Origin: Thalassospiraceae bacterium LMO-JJ14
GTDB taxonomy: Bacteria; Pseudomonadota; Alphaproteobacteria; Rhodospirillales; Casp-alpha2
Reading direction: 5' to 3'
DNA length: 64,000 nucleotides
Assembly (NCBI GenBank): GCA_021555105.2
Contig: CP134604.1
Span: 1,178,001-1,242,000 of the forward strand
The translations under genes and the position numbers were made by a program. The notes under the pieces were generated by a model. That model made no database searches, was not told where the DNA came from, and was given only the letters and a program-made list of their open reading frames with translations. This document shows, piece after piece, positions 46,822 through 53,736 of the stretch. The stretch's first letter is position 1. Each line of letters begins with the position of its first letter.

Positions 46822-47508
46822 ATGCCCGAAACCATCAAATTGACAGCATCAGACGGCCACTCGTTCGATGCTTATCGCGCCGATCCTGAAGGTACGCCCT
46901 TTGGCGGCGTGATCGTCATACAGGAAATCTTCGGTGTGAACGTGCACATCCGCGATCTGGTCGAACGCTGGGCGGCGGTCGGCTACACGGCGATTGCGCC
47001 GGCGCTGTACGACCGCTGGGAGCCGGGCTTCGAAACAGGCTACGAGCCTGCGGATATAGAACGTGGCCGTGCCCACAAGGCGACCGCCAATGAAGATCTG
47101 GACGGCGTTATCGCCGATGTCGATGCTGCCCGAGCCGCGATCGCCGATGCCGGGCGGATCGGTGCGGTCGGATACTGCTGGGGCGGGTTCGTGACGTATT
47201 TGGCTGCTTGCCGGCTCGATATCCAGGCGGCCAGTGGTTATTACGGCGGCGGTATCACCGATGTGATCGACGAGGCGCCTAAGTGCCCGACGATTTTGCA
47301 TTTCGGCGATAACGATGCGTCCATTCCGCTTAGCGACGTCGAAGCCGTCCGCGCCGCACATCCGCAAGTGGGCATCAACATTTACGAGGCCGGTCATGGC
47401 TTCCATTGCGACATGCGGGGCAGCTATGATCCGCGTGCGGCTGCCATTGCCGGGATGCGGACGACGCAACTGTTCGAAGCCGTCCTGCGCCGCGGAGAGA
47501 GCGTATGA
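46822..47508 (+). CDS. Dienelactone hydrolase family protein
   Basis: A 228-residue alpha/beta hydrolase. Triad elements fit the family: the Cys nucleophile in GAVGYCWGGFVTY, Asp in HFGDNDASIPLSD, and His in EAGHGFHCDMRGSYD. The N-terminal GGVIVIQEIFGVNVHIRD is typical. It has AGGAAGG upstream. It overlaps the next gene, mtnP, by four bases. No other chlorocatechol genes are nearby, so the natural substrate is unlikely to be dienelactone. Confidence 0.9.
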   Translation: MPETIKLTASDGHSFDAYRADPEGTPFGGVIVIQEIFGVNVHIRDLVERWAAVGYTAIAPALYDRWEPGFETGYEPADIERGRAHKATANEDLDGVIADVDAARAAIADAGRIGAVGYCWGGFVTYLAACRLDIQAASGYYGGGITDVIDEAPKCPTILHFGDNDASIPLSDVEAVRAAHPQVGINIYEAGHGFHCDMRGSYDPRAAAIAGMRTTQLFEAVLRRGESV

Positions 47509-48395
47509 GCGATGCGGCGCAGACACCGATGATCGGCGTGATCGGCGGCAGCGGTCTTTACGAAATCGACGGACTTGAGGATGCCCGCTGGGAGAGCGTG
47601 AAGACCCCCTTCGGCGATCCGTCCGATGACATTCTGCGAGGCACACTCGACGGTATCGAGATGGCCTTTCTGCCGCGCCATGCGCGCGGGCACAGCATTC
47701 CGCCGTCGGACCTGAACTTCCGTGCCAACATTGATGCGCTGAAACGACTCGGCTGCACCGAGGTTCTTTCACTGTCGGCGTGCGGCTCGCTCAAGGATGA
47801 ATACCCGCCGGGCACGTTCGTCGTCGTCGATCAGTTCATCGACCGAACGTTCGCGCGCATCAAAAGCTTTTTTGCCGAGGGTCTGGTCGCCCATGTCGGG
47901 TTCGGGCACCCGGTGTGTTCGCGCCTCGGCGATGCGCTGACGGAAAGTCTGGCGGCGCTGGATATTCCGCATGCGCGGGGCGGTACATATCTCGCCATGG
48001 AAGGGCCACAGTTCTCGACCATCGCGGAATCCAACCTTTACCGCTCATGGGGATGTGACGTGATCGGCATGACCAACATGCCCGAAGCCAAGCTCGCCCG
48101 CGAAGCCGAGATGTGTTACGCCTCCGTCGCCATGGTCACGGATTACGACTGCTGGCATCCGGATCACGACCACGTCTCGGTCGAAGCCATCATCGCCGTC
48201 CTGGTCGGCAATGCCGACAAGGGCCGTTCGCTGGTCAAGGATGTGGTGCCGCGGCTCAAAGGCCGCACGGAAATCTGTCATCAGGGCTGTCATACGGCGC
48301 TGGACAACGCGATCATCACTCATCCGGACAAGCGTGACCCGGGCCTCGTCGCGATGCTCGACGCGGTTGCCGGACGCGTGCTTAATGATGGCTGA
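47505..48395 (+). CDS. mtnP: S-methyl-5'-thioadenosine phosphorylase
   Basis: A 296-residue enzyme that splits 5'-methylthioadenosine with phosphate to adenine and 5-methylthioribose 1-phosphate, in salvage of the by-product of polyamine and homoserine-lactone synthesis. Signatures: MIGVIGGSGLYEIDGL, RHARGHSIPPSDLNFRANI, LSACGSLKDEYPPGTFVVVDQF, YLAMEGPQFSTIAES and VIGMTNMPEAKLAREAEMCY. It overlaps the dienelactone hydrolase and GNAT genes by a few bases, and its product is the substrate of MtnA two genes on. Confidence 0.96.
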   Translation: MSDAAQTPMIGVIGGSGLYEIDGLEDARWESVKTPFGDPSDDILRGTLDGIEMAFLPRHARGHSIPPSDLNFRANIDALKRLGCTEVLSLSACGSLKDEYPPGTFVVVDQFIDRTFARIKSFFAEGLVAHVGFGHPVCSRLGDALTESLAALDIPHARGGTYLAMEGPQFSTIAESNLYRSWGCDVIGMTNMPEAKLAREAEMCYASVAMVTDYDCWHPDHDHVSVEAIIAVLVGNADKGRSLVKDVVPRLKGRTEICHQGCHTALDNAIITHPDKRDPGLVAMLDAVAGRVLNDG

Positions 48396-48849
48396 GTTGA
48401 TTTTTCGCCCTGCTGTTGGTGAAGACCTCAATCGACTTCGTGATATCGCTTTCCGGGCCTATGCAAAATACGTGTCGCGGATCGGCCGCGAGCCGGCACC
48501 GATGGTTGCCGATTTCGCTGCGCACATCGTCCGCAATGAAATCATCGTCGCGGTGTCCGATGACGTCGTTTGCGGCTATATCGTATCCTTTCCACGGGTG
48601 GAAGACTTCTTTATCGAGAATGTTGCCGTTGATCCGGATGCTGCAGGCACCGGGATCGGCAGGGCCTTGATGTCGCATGCCGAGAAAGCGGCCCGTGCGG
48701 CGGGCTGCAATCTTGTCCGTCTTTATACGAACGTAAAAATGCACGAGAACTTTCCCTTCTATGAAGCACTTGGGTATCTTAAAACCCACGACGTGACGGA
48801 AAGCGGGTTTCACCGGGTGTATTTTGAAAAGGCACTGGAGCAGGCATGA
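48388..48849 (+). CDS. GNAT-family N-acetyltransferase
   Basis: A 153-residue acetyltransferase. The acetyl-CoA-binding core is visible: [28 protein letters not shown], with the R/Q-x-x-G-x-G/A-like loop as AGTGIG. The C-terminal half is [24 protein letters not shown] 48385 or 48388 overlaps the mtnP end; its stop overlaps mtnA. It is wedged between the two methylthioadenosine salvage genes, so its substrate may be related, though GNAT proteins are diverse. Confidence 0.88.
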
Positions 48850-49934
48850 AAGTAGACGGCATTCCTTATCGCACCATCTGGCTGGCCGACGACGGCTGGG
48901 CGGTTGAAATCATCGATCAGACGCGTTTGCCGTTCGAATTCGTCACGGTACGGCTGGAAAACGTCGACGATGCCTGTGTCGCCATTCGCGACATGCTGGT
49001 CCGGGGTGCGCCGCTGATCGGCGCCACGGCGGCCTACGGCATGGCGCTGGCGATGCAGGCGGATGCTTCCGACGTGCATCTTAAAGCGGCCTACGGCAAG
49101 CTGCTGGCGACACGGCCGACGGCGGTCAATCTGCGCTGGGCGCTGGACGACATGAAGGCTCTGCTGGGGCCGCTGTCGGAGAATGAACGCACACAGGCGG
49201 CATACGCGCGGGCCGCCGAAATCTGCGATGAAGACGTGGAAATCTGTTCCGCGATCGGTGACAACGGCCATGCCATCATCCGCGACATCGCCGCGACCAA
49301 ACCGGGCGAACCGGTCAACATTCTGACGCACTGCAATGCCGGATGGCTGGCGACGGTCGACTGGGGCACGGCGCTGGCGCCGATCTACAAGGCCTTCGAC
49401 GCCGGCATTCCGGTGCATGTTTGGGTTGATGAAACCCGGCCCCGCAACCAAGGCGCCAGCCTGACGGCGTGGGAACTGGGCCGCCACGGCGTGCCGCTGA
49501 CGGTGATTGCCGACAATGCCGGCGGCCACCTGATGCAGGAAGGCCGGGTCGACATGTGCATCGTCGGCACAGACCGGACCACGGCGTCGGGGGATGTCTG
49601 CAACAAGATCGGCACCTATCTGAAGGCCCTGGCGGCGCACGATAACGGTGTGCCGTTCTATGTCGCCCTGCCGTCGCCGACCATCGACTGGACGCTGGAC
49701 GACGGCATGGACATACCGATCGAGGAACGTTCCGCCGAAGAGGTGACGAAGATTCAGGGCAAGACGGCGGACGGCAAGATCGTCACCGTTGAAATCGTGC
49801 CGGAAGGTGCGCAAGGGGGAAATCCCGCGTTCGATGTCACGCCGGCCAGGATGGTCACCGGCCTGATCACCGAACGGGGCGTCTGCGCCGCGTCGAAAGA
49901 AGGCCTCAGGGGATTGTTCCCCGAAAAAGCCTGA
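48846..49934 (+). CDS. mtnA: S-methyl-5-thioribose-1-phosphate isomerase
   Basis: A 362-residue isomerase that turns methylthioribose 1-phosphate into the ribulose form. Motifs: [42 protein letters not shown] with the catalytic Cys, [18 protein letters not shown], and the catalytic Asp in [19 protein letters not shown]. No mtnB, mtnC, mtnD or mtnK is in the window, but a FucA-like class II aldolase is, 2.5 kb on. It overlaps the GNAT gene by four bases. Confidence 0.96.
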
Positions 49935-49961: not shown

Positions 49962-50915
49962 ATGAAAATCGTCATTACGGGCGGCACCGGTTTCCTTGGC
50001 CGCCTGCTTGCCGAGCGGGCTGTTGCCCGCGGTGATCAGGTAACTCTGTTTGATATTGCCTCGCCGCCGGACGGTCTGGGCGGGCTCGACGGCAAGGTCG
50101 ACGTGGTCCTTGGTGACATCACCGATGCTGCGACGGTCAACGCCGTGATCGCAGGCAGTGACGCGGTGGTGCATCTGGCGTCCATGGTCAGCGCCGGTTC
50201 GGAAGCGGATTTCGACGCCGCCATGCGGGTCAATCTGGATGGCGGGCGGACAGTGCTGGAAGCGGTCCGCGCCAACGGGCCGCAGACGAAACTGTTGTTT
50301 ACTTCAAGCCTGGCCGTGTTCGGCGGGACCGCAATGCCGCCGACGGTTGACGGCATGACCCGCCCGGTGCCGCAGAACACCTATGGGATGACCAAGACGG
50401 TCATGGAGCTTCTGATCAACGACATGAGCCGCAAGGGCTTTTTCGATGGTCGTGTCGGCCGGTTGCCGACGGTGATCGTGCGTCCCGGAAAGCCGAATAC
50501 GGCAGCCTCATCGTTTGCCAGCGGCGTAATCCGCGAGCAGTTGACCGGGGATGTCTGCGAACTGCCGGTCAGCCGCGACCTCACGCTGTGCGTCGGTGGA
50601 TACAGGACCGTGGCCGACGGCTTGATGGCGATGTTGGATGCGCCCGCCGAAAGCTTCGGCGACGACCGGGTGATCAATCTGCCGAATATCACGGTCAGTG
50701 TCAGCGACATGATCGCCGCCACCAAAGCCGTGGCGGTGCGTCACGGCATCACGCTGGGCACGATCGAGGACACGCCCAACGAGACCGTCCGTGCCATTGT
50801 CGGTAGCTGGCCGGTGGCCATGGATGCGACCCGGGCGTTGGCGCTCGGCTGTCCCCGCGATACCGACCTTGATGCGATCATCGAGGCGTTTATCGCGGAT
50901 TACCTGCAGGGCTGA
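49962..50915 (+). CDS. NAD-dependent epimerase/dehydratase, D-erythronate dehydrogenase-like
   Basis: A 317-residue extended SDR. The cofactor motif is GGTGFLGRLL (residues 7-16), with DSD-type FTSSLAVFGG and the catalytic YGMTK. The conserved VRPGKPNTAASSFASGVIRE and SPAxxx-type C-terminus match the DenD group, which oxidises D-erythronate in tetronate catabolism. It begins 27 bases after mtnA with GGGAGGAAC upstream. Other tetronate genes of the usual cluster are not present except the aldolase fused further on, which belongs to the same superfamily as OtnC. Confidence 0.85.
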   Translation: MKIVITGGTGFLGRLLAERAVARGDQVTLFDIASPPDGLGGLDGKVDVVLGDITDAATVNAVIAGSDAVVHLASMVSAGSEADFDAAMRVNLDGGRTVLEAVRANGPQTKLLFTSSLAVFGGTAMPPTVDGMTRPVPQNTYGMTKTVMELLINDMSRKGFFDGRVGRLPTVIVRPGKPNTAASSFASGVIREQLTGDVCELPVSRDLTLCVGGYRTVADGLMAMLDAPAESFGDDRVINLPNITVSVSDMIAATKAVAVRHGITLGTIEDTPNETVRAIVGSWPVAMDATRALALGCPRDTDLDAIIEAFIADYLQG

Positions 50916-50933: not shown

Positions 50934-52274
50934 TCATCCCTCGGCGACATCCCGGGCCATGCGCGCCGCCAGGCCGATATAGGCTTCGGGGTCGAGCAGG
51001 GTATCGATTTCATCCTCGCTCAGGGCATCGGTCACGGTGGGCAGCCGCATCAGCGCTTCCTTCATGGTGGTATCTTCCTTGAAGGCAGTCATGCAGGCGG
51101 CGTGAAGAACATCGTGCGCCTTCTGGCGGCCGAATTTCTCACCCAGCGACATCATAACCGCTTCCGAAAGCGTAAGCCCCTTGGTGATGTCGAGATTGCG
51201 GCGCATGTTGGCGGCACGGACATCCAGCCCGTCGCAAAGAACGATGGTTTTCGCCAGCGCGGCATCGGCCTGACATACGGTGCGGCTGATAAATTCCCGT
51301 TCGGTGTTGAGTGCAATTTTATCGCGTTCGTTCTCGCTGACCATCGTCTCGAACGCCAGTGAAACGCTGGAGCGCACCGTCCGCACCAATCCGGCGATGC
51401 TTTCACAGATCGCGGGGTTGCGCTTGTGCGGCATGGTCGACGAGCCGACCTTGCCGGCGGGGTAGGGTTCCTCGACTTCCTGCAGTTCGGTCTTGGTCAT
51501 CAGGAACAGTTCGTTGGCGATCTTGCCGCAGGTGCCGGCGATCATCGCCAGAACGGAAACCATCTCGACCAGCCGGTCGCGGGCGGTGTGCCATGTGATG
51601 GCCGGTTCCTCTAGTTCCAGATTGCGCATCAGTTTTTCACGCACGGCAAAGCCCTGATCGCCGAGCGCGGCCAGGGTGCCGACGGCGCCGCCGAACTGTC
51701 CGGCCAGAAGCCGCGGGCGCATTTCGTCAATCCGGGTCTGGTGGCGGCGGACCTCGTCGAGCCAGATGGCGGCCTTGTAGCCGAACGTCACCGGCTGCGC
51801 ATGCTGGCCGTGGGTGCGGCCGGGCATGGCCGTGGCGGCATGGGTGACCGCATGATCGGCCAGGCTGTCGGCCAGGGCTTCGAGTCGCCCGGCGATGACA
51901 TCAATGGCGTCCCTGATCTGCAGGATCATGCCGGTGTCGGTGATGTCCTGCGTCGTCGCCCCCCAGTGAACATATTCGCCCAGACCGTCCGGGCATTTCG
52001 CGCCGATCATGCGGACCAGTGGGACGATCGGATGCGAAGTGCGGTCCATCTCGCGTTTCATTTCGGAAAGATCGTAATCGGCGGCATCCCCGGCATCGCG
52101 AATGGCTTTGGCCGCCTCGGCGGGGATGATCCCCAGTTCGGCCTCGGCTTCGGCCAGGGCGACCTCGACATCCAGCCAGGCCTGTACGGTGCGGACGTCG
52201 GAGAAGATCTCCCGCATTTCGCTGGTTGAAAACTGATCACGAAACAATTCGCTGTCGATAACGTACGCGGCCAT
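50934..52274 (-). CDS. Adenylosuccinate-lyase-family protein
   Basis: A 446-residue fumarase/aspartase-superfamily lyase. The superfamily signature is GSSTMPHKRNPAICE, with TTQDITDTG and GRTHGQHAQPVTFG regions also present. Its N-terminus (VIDSELFRDQFSTSEMREIF) differs from housekeeping alphaproteobacterial PurB, so this may be a paralogue such as a cycloisomerase or another beta-elimination lyase. It is on the minus strand with its own spacer (52275-52431) shared with the plus-strand aldolase fusion. Substrate unknown. Confidence 0.83.
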   Translation of the reverse strand: MAAYVIDSELFRDQFSTSEMREIFSDVRTVQAWLDVEVALAEAEAELGIIPAEAAKAIRDAGDAADYDLSEMKREMDRTSHPIVPLVRMIGAKCPDGLGEYVHWGATTQDITDTGMILQIRDAIDVIAGRLEALADSLADHAVTHAATAMPGRTHGQHAQPVTFGYKAAIWLDEVRRHQTRIDEMRPRLLAGQFGGAVGTLAALGDQGFAVREKLMRNLELEEPAITWHTARDRLVEMVSVLAMIAGTCGKIANELFLMTKTELQEVEEPYPAGKVGSSTMPHKRNPAICESIAGLVRTVRSSVSLAFETMVSENERDKIALNTEREFISRTVCQADAALAKTIVLCDGLDVRAANMRRNLDITKGLTLSEAVMMSLGEKFGRQKAHDVLHAACMTAFKEDTTMKEALMRLPTVTDALSEDEIDTLLDPEAYIGLAARMARDVAEG

Positions 52275-52401
52275 TGGGGAAACTCCTGTGGGGAAACGCC
52301 TTATTTATCCGGCAGAGATTGGACGGCATCCTATCGGGGCCGTCAACGCCGATAGGATTGATTTTCCTTGATCTATGATGAATTGGAATAATATAGTGAC
52401 T

Positions 52402-52415
52402 TACCTATATAGGTA
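52402..52415. promoter_or_regulatory. Perfect 14-bp palindrome before the antitoxin-aldolase gene
   Basis: TACCTATATAGGTA is its own reverse complement, ending 16 bases before the start codon at 52432 in an AT-rich spacer. Phd/YefM antitoxins bind short palindromes in their own promoters, so this is a plausible self-operator for the fused protein downstream. The TATATA core could also serve as a -10 element, in which case bound protein would block initiation. Confidence 0.55.
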
Positions 52416-52431
52416 TGTAACTAATTAATAT

Positions 52432-53277
52432 ATGAAACATGATCGATTCGCGTTGAAAATCAGCGCCACGGATGCCAACCAGCGGTTTTCGCGCCTCCTT
52501 GCCGAAAGCGAAGAGGGCCGCGATGTCATTATCACCAAGCGCGGTCGCCCGGTAGCACGGCTGCTGTCGATGCATGCGGACACCAAAGCCGCCCCTTTGG
52601 CAGGTGTGCCGGTGGATCCCGACATACCCGATTTCTCTAAACGCCGGGCGCTGATCGATACCTGTCGGCGGATGAATGCGGTGGGATTGAATCAGGGGAC
52701 CAGCGGCAATGCGTCGACCCGCGTCGAGGGCGGGCTGCTGATCACGCCGTCGGGGCTCGATTACGACAGAACGGAACCGGTCGATATCGTGAAAATCGAC
52801 TGGGCGGGCCGCGTGCTGCGGGGCCACCGCGCACCGTCCAGTGAATGGCATTTCCACTGCCGTGTCATGGAAGCCCGCCCCAAGGCCGGGGCGCTGCTGC
52901 ACACACACTCCATCAATGCGACGACGCTGGCGTGTTTGAGCCGGGGCATTCCGCCGTTTCATTACATGGTCGCCGTGGCCGGCGGGCGGGATATCCGTTG
53001 TGCGCCCTATGCCACCTTCGGCACGGAAAAGCTCGCCGACGCGGTGCTCGAAGCGCTGGACGGCCGGCTTGCATGCCTGATGGAGAACCATGGCATGCTG
53101 GTGTTGGGACGGGACCTGGAAGAGGCGTTCAAGCGGGCCATTGAAATTGAAACGCTGGCCGAGCAGTACCTGAAGGCGCTGGCCATCGGCACTCCGAAAC
53201 TGCTGACCGTCGGCGAAATGGAAGTGGTGCTTGAGAAATTCAAAAATTATAGCGCCTGGGCCGACCCGAAGCGCTAA
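52432..53277 (+). CDS. Phd/YefM-type antitoxin domain fused to class II (FucA-like) aldolase
   Basis: A 281-residue protein with two unrelated parts in one frame. Residues 6-47 match a Phd/YefM DNA-binding antitoxin (KISATDANQRFSRLLAE, EGRDVIITKRGRPVARLL). After a 20-residue linker, residues 68-270 form a class II aldolase: NQGTSGNASTRVEGGLLITP, catalytic Glu138 in SSEWHFH, zinc His157, His159 (LHTHS) and His220 (ENHGML). FucA-type enzymes cleave sugar phosphates to dihydroxyacetone phosphate. Near mtnP/mtnA it may cleave methylthioribulose 1-phosphate, or with denD-like it may act on a tetronate. No toxin gene is adjacent. ATG 81 codons in (52672) would give the aldolase alone, but lacks the first helix. 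Confidence 0.85.
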   Translation: MKHDRFALKISATDANQRFSRLLAESEEGRDVIITKRGRPVARLLSMHADTKAAPLAGVPVDPDIPDFSKRRALIDTCRRMNAVGLNQGTSGNASTRVEGGLLITPSGLDYDRTEPVDIVKIDWAGRVLRGHRAPSSEWHFHCRVMEARPKAGALLHTHSINATTLACLSRGIPPFHYMVAVAGGRDIRCAPYATFGTEKLADAVLEALDGRLACLMENHGMLVLGRDLEEAFKRAIEIETLAEQYLKALAIGTPKLLTVGEMEVVLEKFKNYSAWADPKR

Positions 53278-53302: not shown

Positions 53303-53635
53303 ATGAAAATTCCCGAACTGCCGTTTACGCTGACAAACTGGGACGATGTCGACCCCGTCGTCTATCCGGGTGAAACCGGCGAAGCCATCTGGCGGACCCT
53401 GAACATCGGCGATATCCGTGTCCGGGTCGTCGAGTACTCCGCCGGGTATCTGGCCGATCACTGGTGCGATCGGGGGCATATTCTGTATGTCCTCGAGGGC
53501 GAGCTGACCAGTGAACTCAAGGACGGCCGCAGCGTCGTCATGACGCCGGGGATGAGCTATCAGGTCTCCGATTTCGGGGATGCGCCACACCGCTCACGGA
53601 CACAGGTCGGGGCGAAACTGTTTATCGTCGATTGA
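53303..53635 (+). CDS. DHCW-type cupin protein
   Basis: A 110-residue single-domain cupin. It carries the ADHWCDRGHILYVLEGEL stretch that marks the DHCW-motif cupin family, plus TPGMSYQVSDFGDAPHRS closing the barrel; His and Glu residues of a possible metal site are present. Function is not established. It begins 26 bases after the aldolase fusion and is likely co-transcribed. Cupins occur in some methylthioadenosine shunts, but no specific match is claimed. Confidence 0.85.
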   Translation: MKIPELPFTLTNWDDVDPVVYPGETGEAIWRTLNIGDIRVRVVEYSAGYLADHWCDRGHILYVLEGELTSELKDGRSVVMTPGMSYQVSDFGDAPHRSRTQVGAKLFIVD

Positions 53636-53683
53636 GCGGTCGGACCTCTTAAGCCGCCGCATGATATCCAGTGCGGAAAACAA

Positions 53684-53713
53684 AAAAGCCCCAGTCGCGA
53701 GACCGGGGCTTTT
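53684..53713. terminator. Bidirectional terminator between cupin and petC
   Basis: AAAAGCCCC and GGGGCTTTT pair perfectly, extended by GTC/GAC with one mismatch, around a GCGA loop; the A and T arms give a T tract on both strands. It serves the plus-strand cupin gene and the convergent minus-strand petABC operon. Confidence 0.9.
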
Positions 53714-53736
53714 CGTTTGGGCTGGCCGGCGAACCG

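Follow-up and report, generated by a model that had tools for sequence, protein, structure and literature searches.

A single open reading frame in the 64-kb stretch of DNA analysed here (hereafter, the window) encodes the DNA-binding half of a Phd/YefM antitoxin joined to a complete class II aldolase. A near-perfect palindrome at 52394-52423 stands 8 bp before the start codon of this fusion gene. Since a Phd DNA-binding half and a matching landing site before the gene are found together, the enzyme very probably binds this site and represses its own gene, as judged from sequence comparison. The features of the locus are listed in Table 1.

Table 1 Features of the fusion locus. Positions are those of the window.
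Feature	Position	Strand	Remarks
mtnP, S-methyl-5'-thioadenosine phosphorylase	47505..48395	+	PRK08931 and TIGR01694 above cut-off
mtnA, S-methyl-5-thioribose-1-phosphate isomerase	48846..49934	+	TIGR00512 above cut-off
D-erythronate-dehydrogenase-like SDR	49962..50915	+	NF043036, 313.9 bits, just under the cut-off of 325
Adenylosuccinate-lyase-family (purB-like) gene	50934..52274	-	Divergent from the fusion gene; TIGR00928, 359 bits (cut-off 326)
Weak candidate promoter, TTGATC-18-TATAGT	52368..52397	+	Consensus match only; one chance match expected
Predicted operator, near-perfect 30-bp palindrome TAGTGACTTACCTATATAGGTATGTAACTA	52394..52423		26 of 30 positions self-complementary; predicted from sequence
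Operator unit 1, TAGTGACTTACCTA	52394..52407	+	14 bp
Operator unit 2, TAGTTACATACCTA	52410..52423	-	14 bp; centre-to-centre distance to unit 1, 16 bp
Phd-aldolase fusion gene	52432..53277	+	281 aa, single uninterrupted ORF
Phd/YefM N-terminal DNA-binding domain	52453..52572	+	About residues 8-47; PF02604, E = 1.4e-9
Linker	52573..52629	+	Residues 48-66; fast-evolving, low-confidence; no toxin-binding antitoxin tail
Class II aldolase, FucA/Ald2 type	52630..53274	+	Residues 67-281; PF00596, E = 1e-55
DHCW-motif cupin	53303..53635	+	25 bp downstream of the fusion gene; NF038084, 166.7 bits (cut-off 70)

Domain architecture and conservation of the fusion protein

The original prediction had described a Phd/YefM domain and a complete class II aldolase in one frame, and both were confirmed by domain search. 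In Pfam, PF02604 matched residues 10-47 with 38.0 bits (cut-off 29.8), and PF00596 matched residues 73-247 with 188.8 bits (cut-off 22.2). The NCBIfam model for prevent-host-death antitoxins, TIGR01552, was also passed (40.8 bits, cut-off 20.8). The match to PF02604 covered positions 4-42 of the 74 in the profile and left 43-74 unmatched, which indicates that the protein has the DNA-binding half but lacks the toxin-binding half. In the aldolase, the zinc and catalytic residues, which had been expected to be complete, were all found and were invariant across the eight orthologues (SSE at 136-138, HTH at 157-159, and H220). The expected lack of a toxin partner was also borne out: no toxin gene is present near the fusion gene, the next gene being that of the DHCW-motif cupin, and the 3.9-Mb genome contains no PF02604 domain other than the single copy in the fusion. 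The protein has the Phd/YefM fold and, as predicted from sequence, its gene is preceded by a palindromic operator; lacking both a toxin partner and the toxin-binding tail, it does not qualify as a Phd antitoxin. Its fold and its metal and catalytic residues place it in the FucA/Ald2 group (PF00596). Furthermore, a DNA-binding domain and a predicted active enzyme in one chain, as seen in the sequence and the model, are what would be expected of a PutA-like autogenous repressor.

The AlphaFold model of the fusion protein, with a mean pLDDT of 88, contained a Phd-like beta-alpha-alpha-beta-beta unit at residues 8-44 and a complete aldolase, and the pLDDT was below 50 at residues 50-60 of the linker. 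In Foldseek searches, the closest solved relative of the aldolase part was FucA (E. coli 1e4c; TMt 0.95, 46% identity), and DrdA of B. thuringiensis (6btg) was matched with a TMt of 0.95 and 40% identity. When the Phd part was modelled alone, its best 45 matches were all toxin-antitoxin (TA) antitoxins, among them VapB46, Phd, and YefM. VapB46 ranked first, and the matches included 4zm0 and 4zm2, complexes of Phd with operator DNA. The E-values of these matches were each weak (at least 4e-3) because the domain is very short.

Full-length orthologues of the fusion protein, 70-83% identical, were found in six other members of the genus and in one from a second genus of the same family. In a further genus member (L021/L040), the end of the contig cuts inside the aldolase. 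No fusion beyond the eight was found among 317 genomes of the order, and none among 385 genomes of the class, and these searches turned up dozens of unfused orthologues. The survey for other fusions that had been proposed as a check accordingly limited the fusion to eight genomes in two genera of one family. In a maximum-likelihood tree of the aldolase, all eight fused rows were on one branch (support 100/98), so that one origin is enough and the fusion appears to have arisen once. L047/L133, the unfused aldolase closest to the fused ones in the tree, lacks mtnP, mtnA, and cupin genes within about 9 kb; hence, the arrangement before the fusion is not displayed there. An MtnA-aldolase fusion suggested by long open frames of 586-590 aa that contain the aldolase in another family (L046, L048, and L049) was rejected, as the frame differs from that of MtnA.

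Among the eight fused genes, pN was 0.166 for the Phd domain, 0.137 for the aldolase, and 0.496 for the linker, with pS at about 0.73 in all three alike. Purifying selection on the Phd part is thus almost as strong as that on the aldolase, and that on the linker is not. The low pN at equal pS indicates that the Phd domain is translated and under selection. Indeed, pN/pS was 0.23 for residues 10-47 versus 0.68 for the linker, which supports the premise of the original prediction that the N-terminal part is made and that translation does not start at 52672 (Met81).

The candidate operator and its counterparts in toxin-antitoxin relatives

In each of the seven genus members, 6-8 bp separate the end of the palindrome from the start codon. 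Between species, the operator was 78-87% identical in these seven members versus 23-36% for the flanking DNA. The second hexamer of the candidate promoter runs into the operator. Only one other 30-mer in the window is equally symmetric, and this one, at 53684, is terminator-like. A strong G+C-rich hairpin of 14 pairs with a minus-strand T-run lies here (53683-53714), between the cupin and cytochrome c1 genes, and probably serves as the terminator for the cytochrome bc1 operon on the minus strand.

The uniqueness of the operator was tested by a pattern search with up to 3 mismatches in six genomes, using the reversed pattern as the control. The pattern was found at one place per genome in five of the six, always before the fusion gene, and the reversed pattern had no matches in the six genomes. 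In the sixth genome (G006), the pattern was unmatched within 3 mismatches and a diverged operator was observed at the same place; its position-specific score was 41 bits, and the next best score elsewhere was about 12. The consensus of the 14-bp operator unit was TAGTGACATAACTA. In the locus of the other genus (L039), which was left out of the building of the matrix, the two units keep the 16-bp spacing and one of them is turned round, so that both point the same way. The score of this operator was reached by 0 of 500 shuffles. No comparable site was found upstream of 15 unfused aldolases. At the L034 locus, the purB-like gene is lost yet the palindrome is kept, and the palindrome is therefore assigned to the aldolase gene.

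Phd/YefM antitoxins bind operator palindromes as dimers. YefM and Axe repress through pairs of palindromes that overlap the promoter (PMC7730913). The recognition sequence of the fusion is of the AN..FS type. Free-standing relatives of its Phd domain were gathered from the class and the order. A TAGT-N(5-8)-ACTA site was observed upstream of the own start in 9 of 18 AN..FS antitoxins versus 3 of 29 of the AK type (Fisher p = 0.004), in a sample that is not fully independent, as L176 and L178 are near-copies. The other half of the AN-type free-standing antitoxins had no exact TAGT..ACTA motif. The site occurred in 0 of 1278 random segments of the window. Each of the nine site-bearing AN..FS antitoxins (L126, L127, L148, L160, L171, L172, L173, L176, and L178) was followed within a few bases by a PIN-type candidate toxin gene, and the one checked in Pfam was PF01850. 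The unit of L171, TAGTGACATCACTA, is one position off the consensus of the fused loci, TAGTGACATAACTA. A TAGT-N6/7-ACTA operator was common to the AN..FS VapB-type subfamily, and the AK type was mostly without it. This split between the AN..FS and AK operators may possibly reflect a recognition code for Phd-type antitoxins.

Gene neighbourhood and probable pathway

The SDR gene adjoins mtnA or the aldolase gene in those fused loci whose contigs reach that far. The cupin gene directly follows the fusion gene in every fused locus and is probably co-transcribed with it. In most unfused orthologues, the aldolase gene comes directly after mtnA or mtnP. Between mtnPA and the aldolase gene of the fused genera stands the SDR gene, joined in most of them by the divergent purB-like gene, and consequently the aldolase gene needs a promoter of its own. 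A PhyH-type dioxygenase gene lies between mtnA and the SDR gene in several relatives (L036:1134-1955, with similar ORFs in L033, L035, and L037); it is absent from the window and is possibly responsible for a sulfur- or aldehyde-handling step.

The original prediction had left the pathway unnamed. The DHAP shunt splits the product of MtnA into DHAP and an aldehyde (PMC12632272, PMC6079011). The fusion gene is linked to mtnP and mtnA, as is characteristic of a DHAP-shunt aldolase, and neither an MtnB above the cut-off nor a fucose isomerase (FucI) was found in the genome; the fusion was therefore placed in the DHAP shunt. This context suggests that the pathway is the salvage of methylthioadenosine and 5'-deoxyadenosine through the shunt, and the substrate is presumed from it to be 5-methylthioribulose-1-phosphate and/or 5-deoxyribulose-1-phosphate. 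The identity as an L-fuculose-1-phosphate aldolase (FucA) was rejected, as the FucA models scored below their cut-offs (226 against 264 bits and 207 against 400 bits) and the genome is without FucI.

Proposed autorepression, alternatives and known systems

In the explanation that we prefer, the aldolase part would cleave the MtnP/MtnA-derived 5-methylthioribulose-1-phosphate and/or 5-deoxyribulose-1-phosphate to DHAP and an aldehyde, and the N-terminal part would be the DNA-binding half of a VapB-type Phd/YefM antitoxin. With tetrameric aldolases and dimeric Phd binding, one fusion tetramer could offer two Phd dimers to the two units. Class II aldolases of the DrdA group are indeed tetramers (PMC6079011). 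We infer that two Phd dimers on one aldolase tetramer bind both 14-bp units at 52394-52423, and that the bound operator blocks transcription of the aldolase-cupin unit; its position would suit a block of initiation or of a polymerase early in elongation. The gene probably originated when the 5' end of an antitoxin gene, with operator and DNA-binding domain, was joined in frame to an aldolase gene, and the aldolase would have taken the place of the toxin-binding tail. Capture of the antitoxin operator and the DNA-binding domain as one piece would be the simplest history. On the other side, the DHAP-shunt pathway of R. rubrum is reported to be constitutive at a low level (PMC12632272), so that regulation is not always needed, which counts against this explanation.

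The original prediction had proposed a metabolite-sensing self-repressor. The self-repressor part gained its strongest support from the unique paired-palindrome operator, which had gone unnoticed in that prediction, tracks the fusion and matches the operators of the TA relatives, and the sensing part remains an analogy. As an extension of autorepression that is compatible with it, the protein may be a trigger enzyme proper, in which binding of the substrate or DHAP would change how far apart or how mobile the Phd dimers are and free the operator, leading to induction by relief of repression as the substrate rises. We put this forward tentatively, as possible rather than probable. It draws on PutA, which does so with proline (PMC5293562). 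Phosphorylated intermediates generally act as the regulators of such pathways, and this is a further basis for it. MtnR keeps the DHAP shunt of E. coli repressed as long as no substrate is present, and a phosphorylated shunt intermediate was proposed as the effector of MtnR (PMC12632272). In addition, no separate regulator gene was identified in the mtnP/mtnA/aldolase cluster. However, the linker is fast-evolving and of low confidence, so that an allosteric path is not obvious, and plain negative feedback works without a ligand. A bolder version, in which a captured TA autoregulation cassette has become a one-protein, substrate-relieved switch of the DHAP shunt and the aldolase tetramer bridges as the toxin does in conditional cooperativity, seems to us rather unlikely.

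It is improbable that the palindrome is bound by another regulator and that the Phd domain serves only for oligomerisation or is a passenger. A palindrome near the start codon fits many repressor families, but this site occurs once in each genome, accompanies the fusion, and was not found where the fusion is lacking. Furthermore, its paired geometry resembles that of YefM operators, the site is common to TA relatives of the same Phd subfamily, and the Phd domain is under purifying selection. Still harder to accept is that the Phd part is a degradation tag, or a stray antitoxin acting against some toxin elsewhere: Phd/YefM antitoxins are indeed protease-labile and bind toxins, but the toxin-binding half of the profile is unmatched, the genome is without another PF02604 domain, and the operator would be left unexplained. 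An artefact, with the N-terminal part untranslated or the fusion an assembly error, is scarcely credible. In its favour, the putative start codon at 52432 has no clear Shine-Dalgarno sequence and one orthologue would need TTG, but the same fusion is present in seven other genomes from separate assemblies, residues 10-47 show coding-type constraint, and Met81 falls inside the first aldolase helix (residues 68-84 in the AlphaFold model), which a start there would cut.

With autorepression as the preferred reading, the fusion can be compared with known systems. In the open-access literature, we found no fusion of a Phd antitoxin domain with an aldolase or another metabolic enzyme. The fusion shares the fold, the AN..FS sequence, and the palindromic TAGT..ACTA operator before the gene with the VapB-type Phd/YefM antitoxins that accompany PIN toxins; unlike them, it has neither a toxin gene nor a toxin-binding tail, and an enzyme replaces the tail. 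It resembles Ald2 and DrdA in the aldolase fold, the catalytic residues, and the mtnP/mtnA context, whereas the described Ald2/DrdA proteins have no DNA-binding domain. BirA and NadR are enzymes that repress their own pathways, with the DNA-binding domain and the enzyme in one chain, but their domains are of the helix-turn-helix type and their pathways are unrelated. The DHAP shunt of E. coli differs in being controlled by CRP and a separate repressor, MtnR, whose effector and binding site are still to be identified (PMC12632272). Beside these described regulators, the fusion would be a new type of DHAP-shunt regulator. It would also show how the regulatory half of a selfish TA module, a DNA-binding domain with its matching operator, can become domesticated in ordinary metabolism. 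As the protein, the operator, and the unfused relatives are all available, the capture and any ligand sensing are directly testable. Like the fusion, PutA carries an N-terminal DNA-binding domain on a metabolic enzyme and represses its own gene; PutA has a ribbon-helix-helix domain, proline oxidation, and membrane switching, whereas the fusion has a Phd/YefM domain, an aldolase, and an operator type of its own. In our proposal the fusion acts like PutA, yet the DNA-binding domain, the enzyme, and the pathway all differ.
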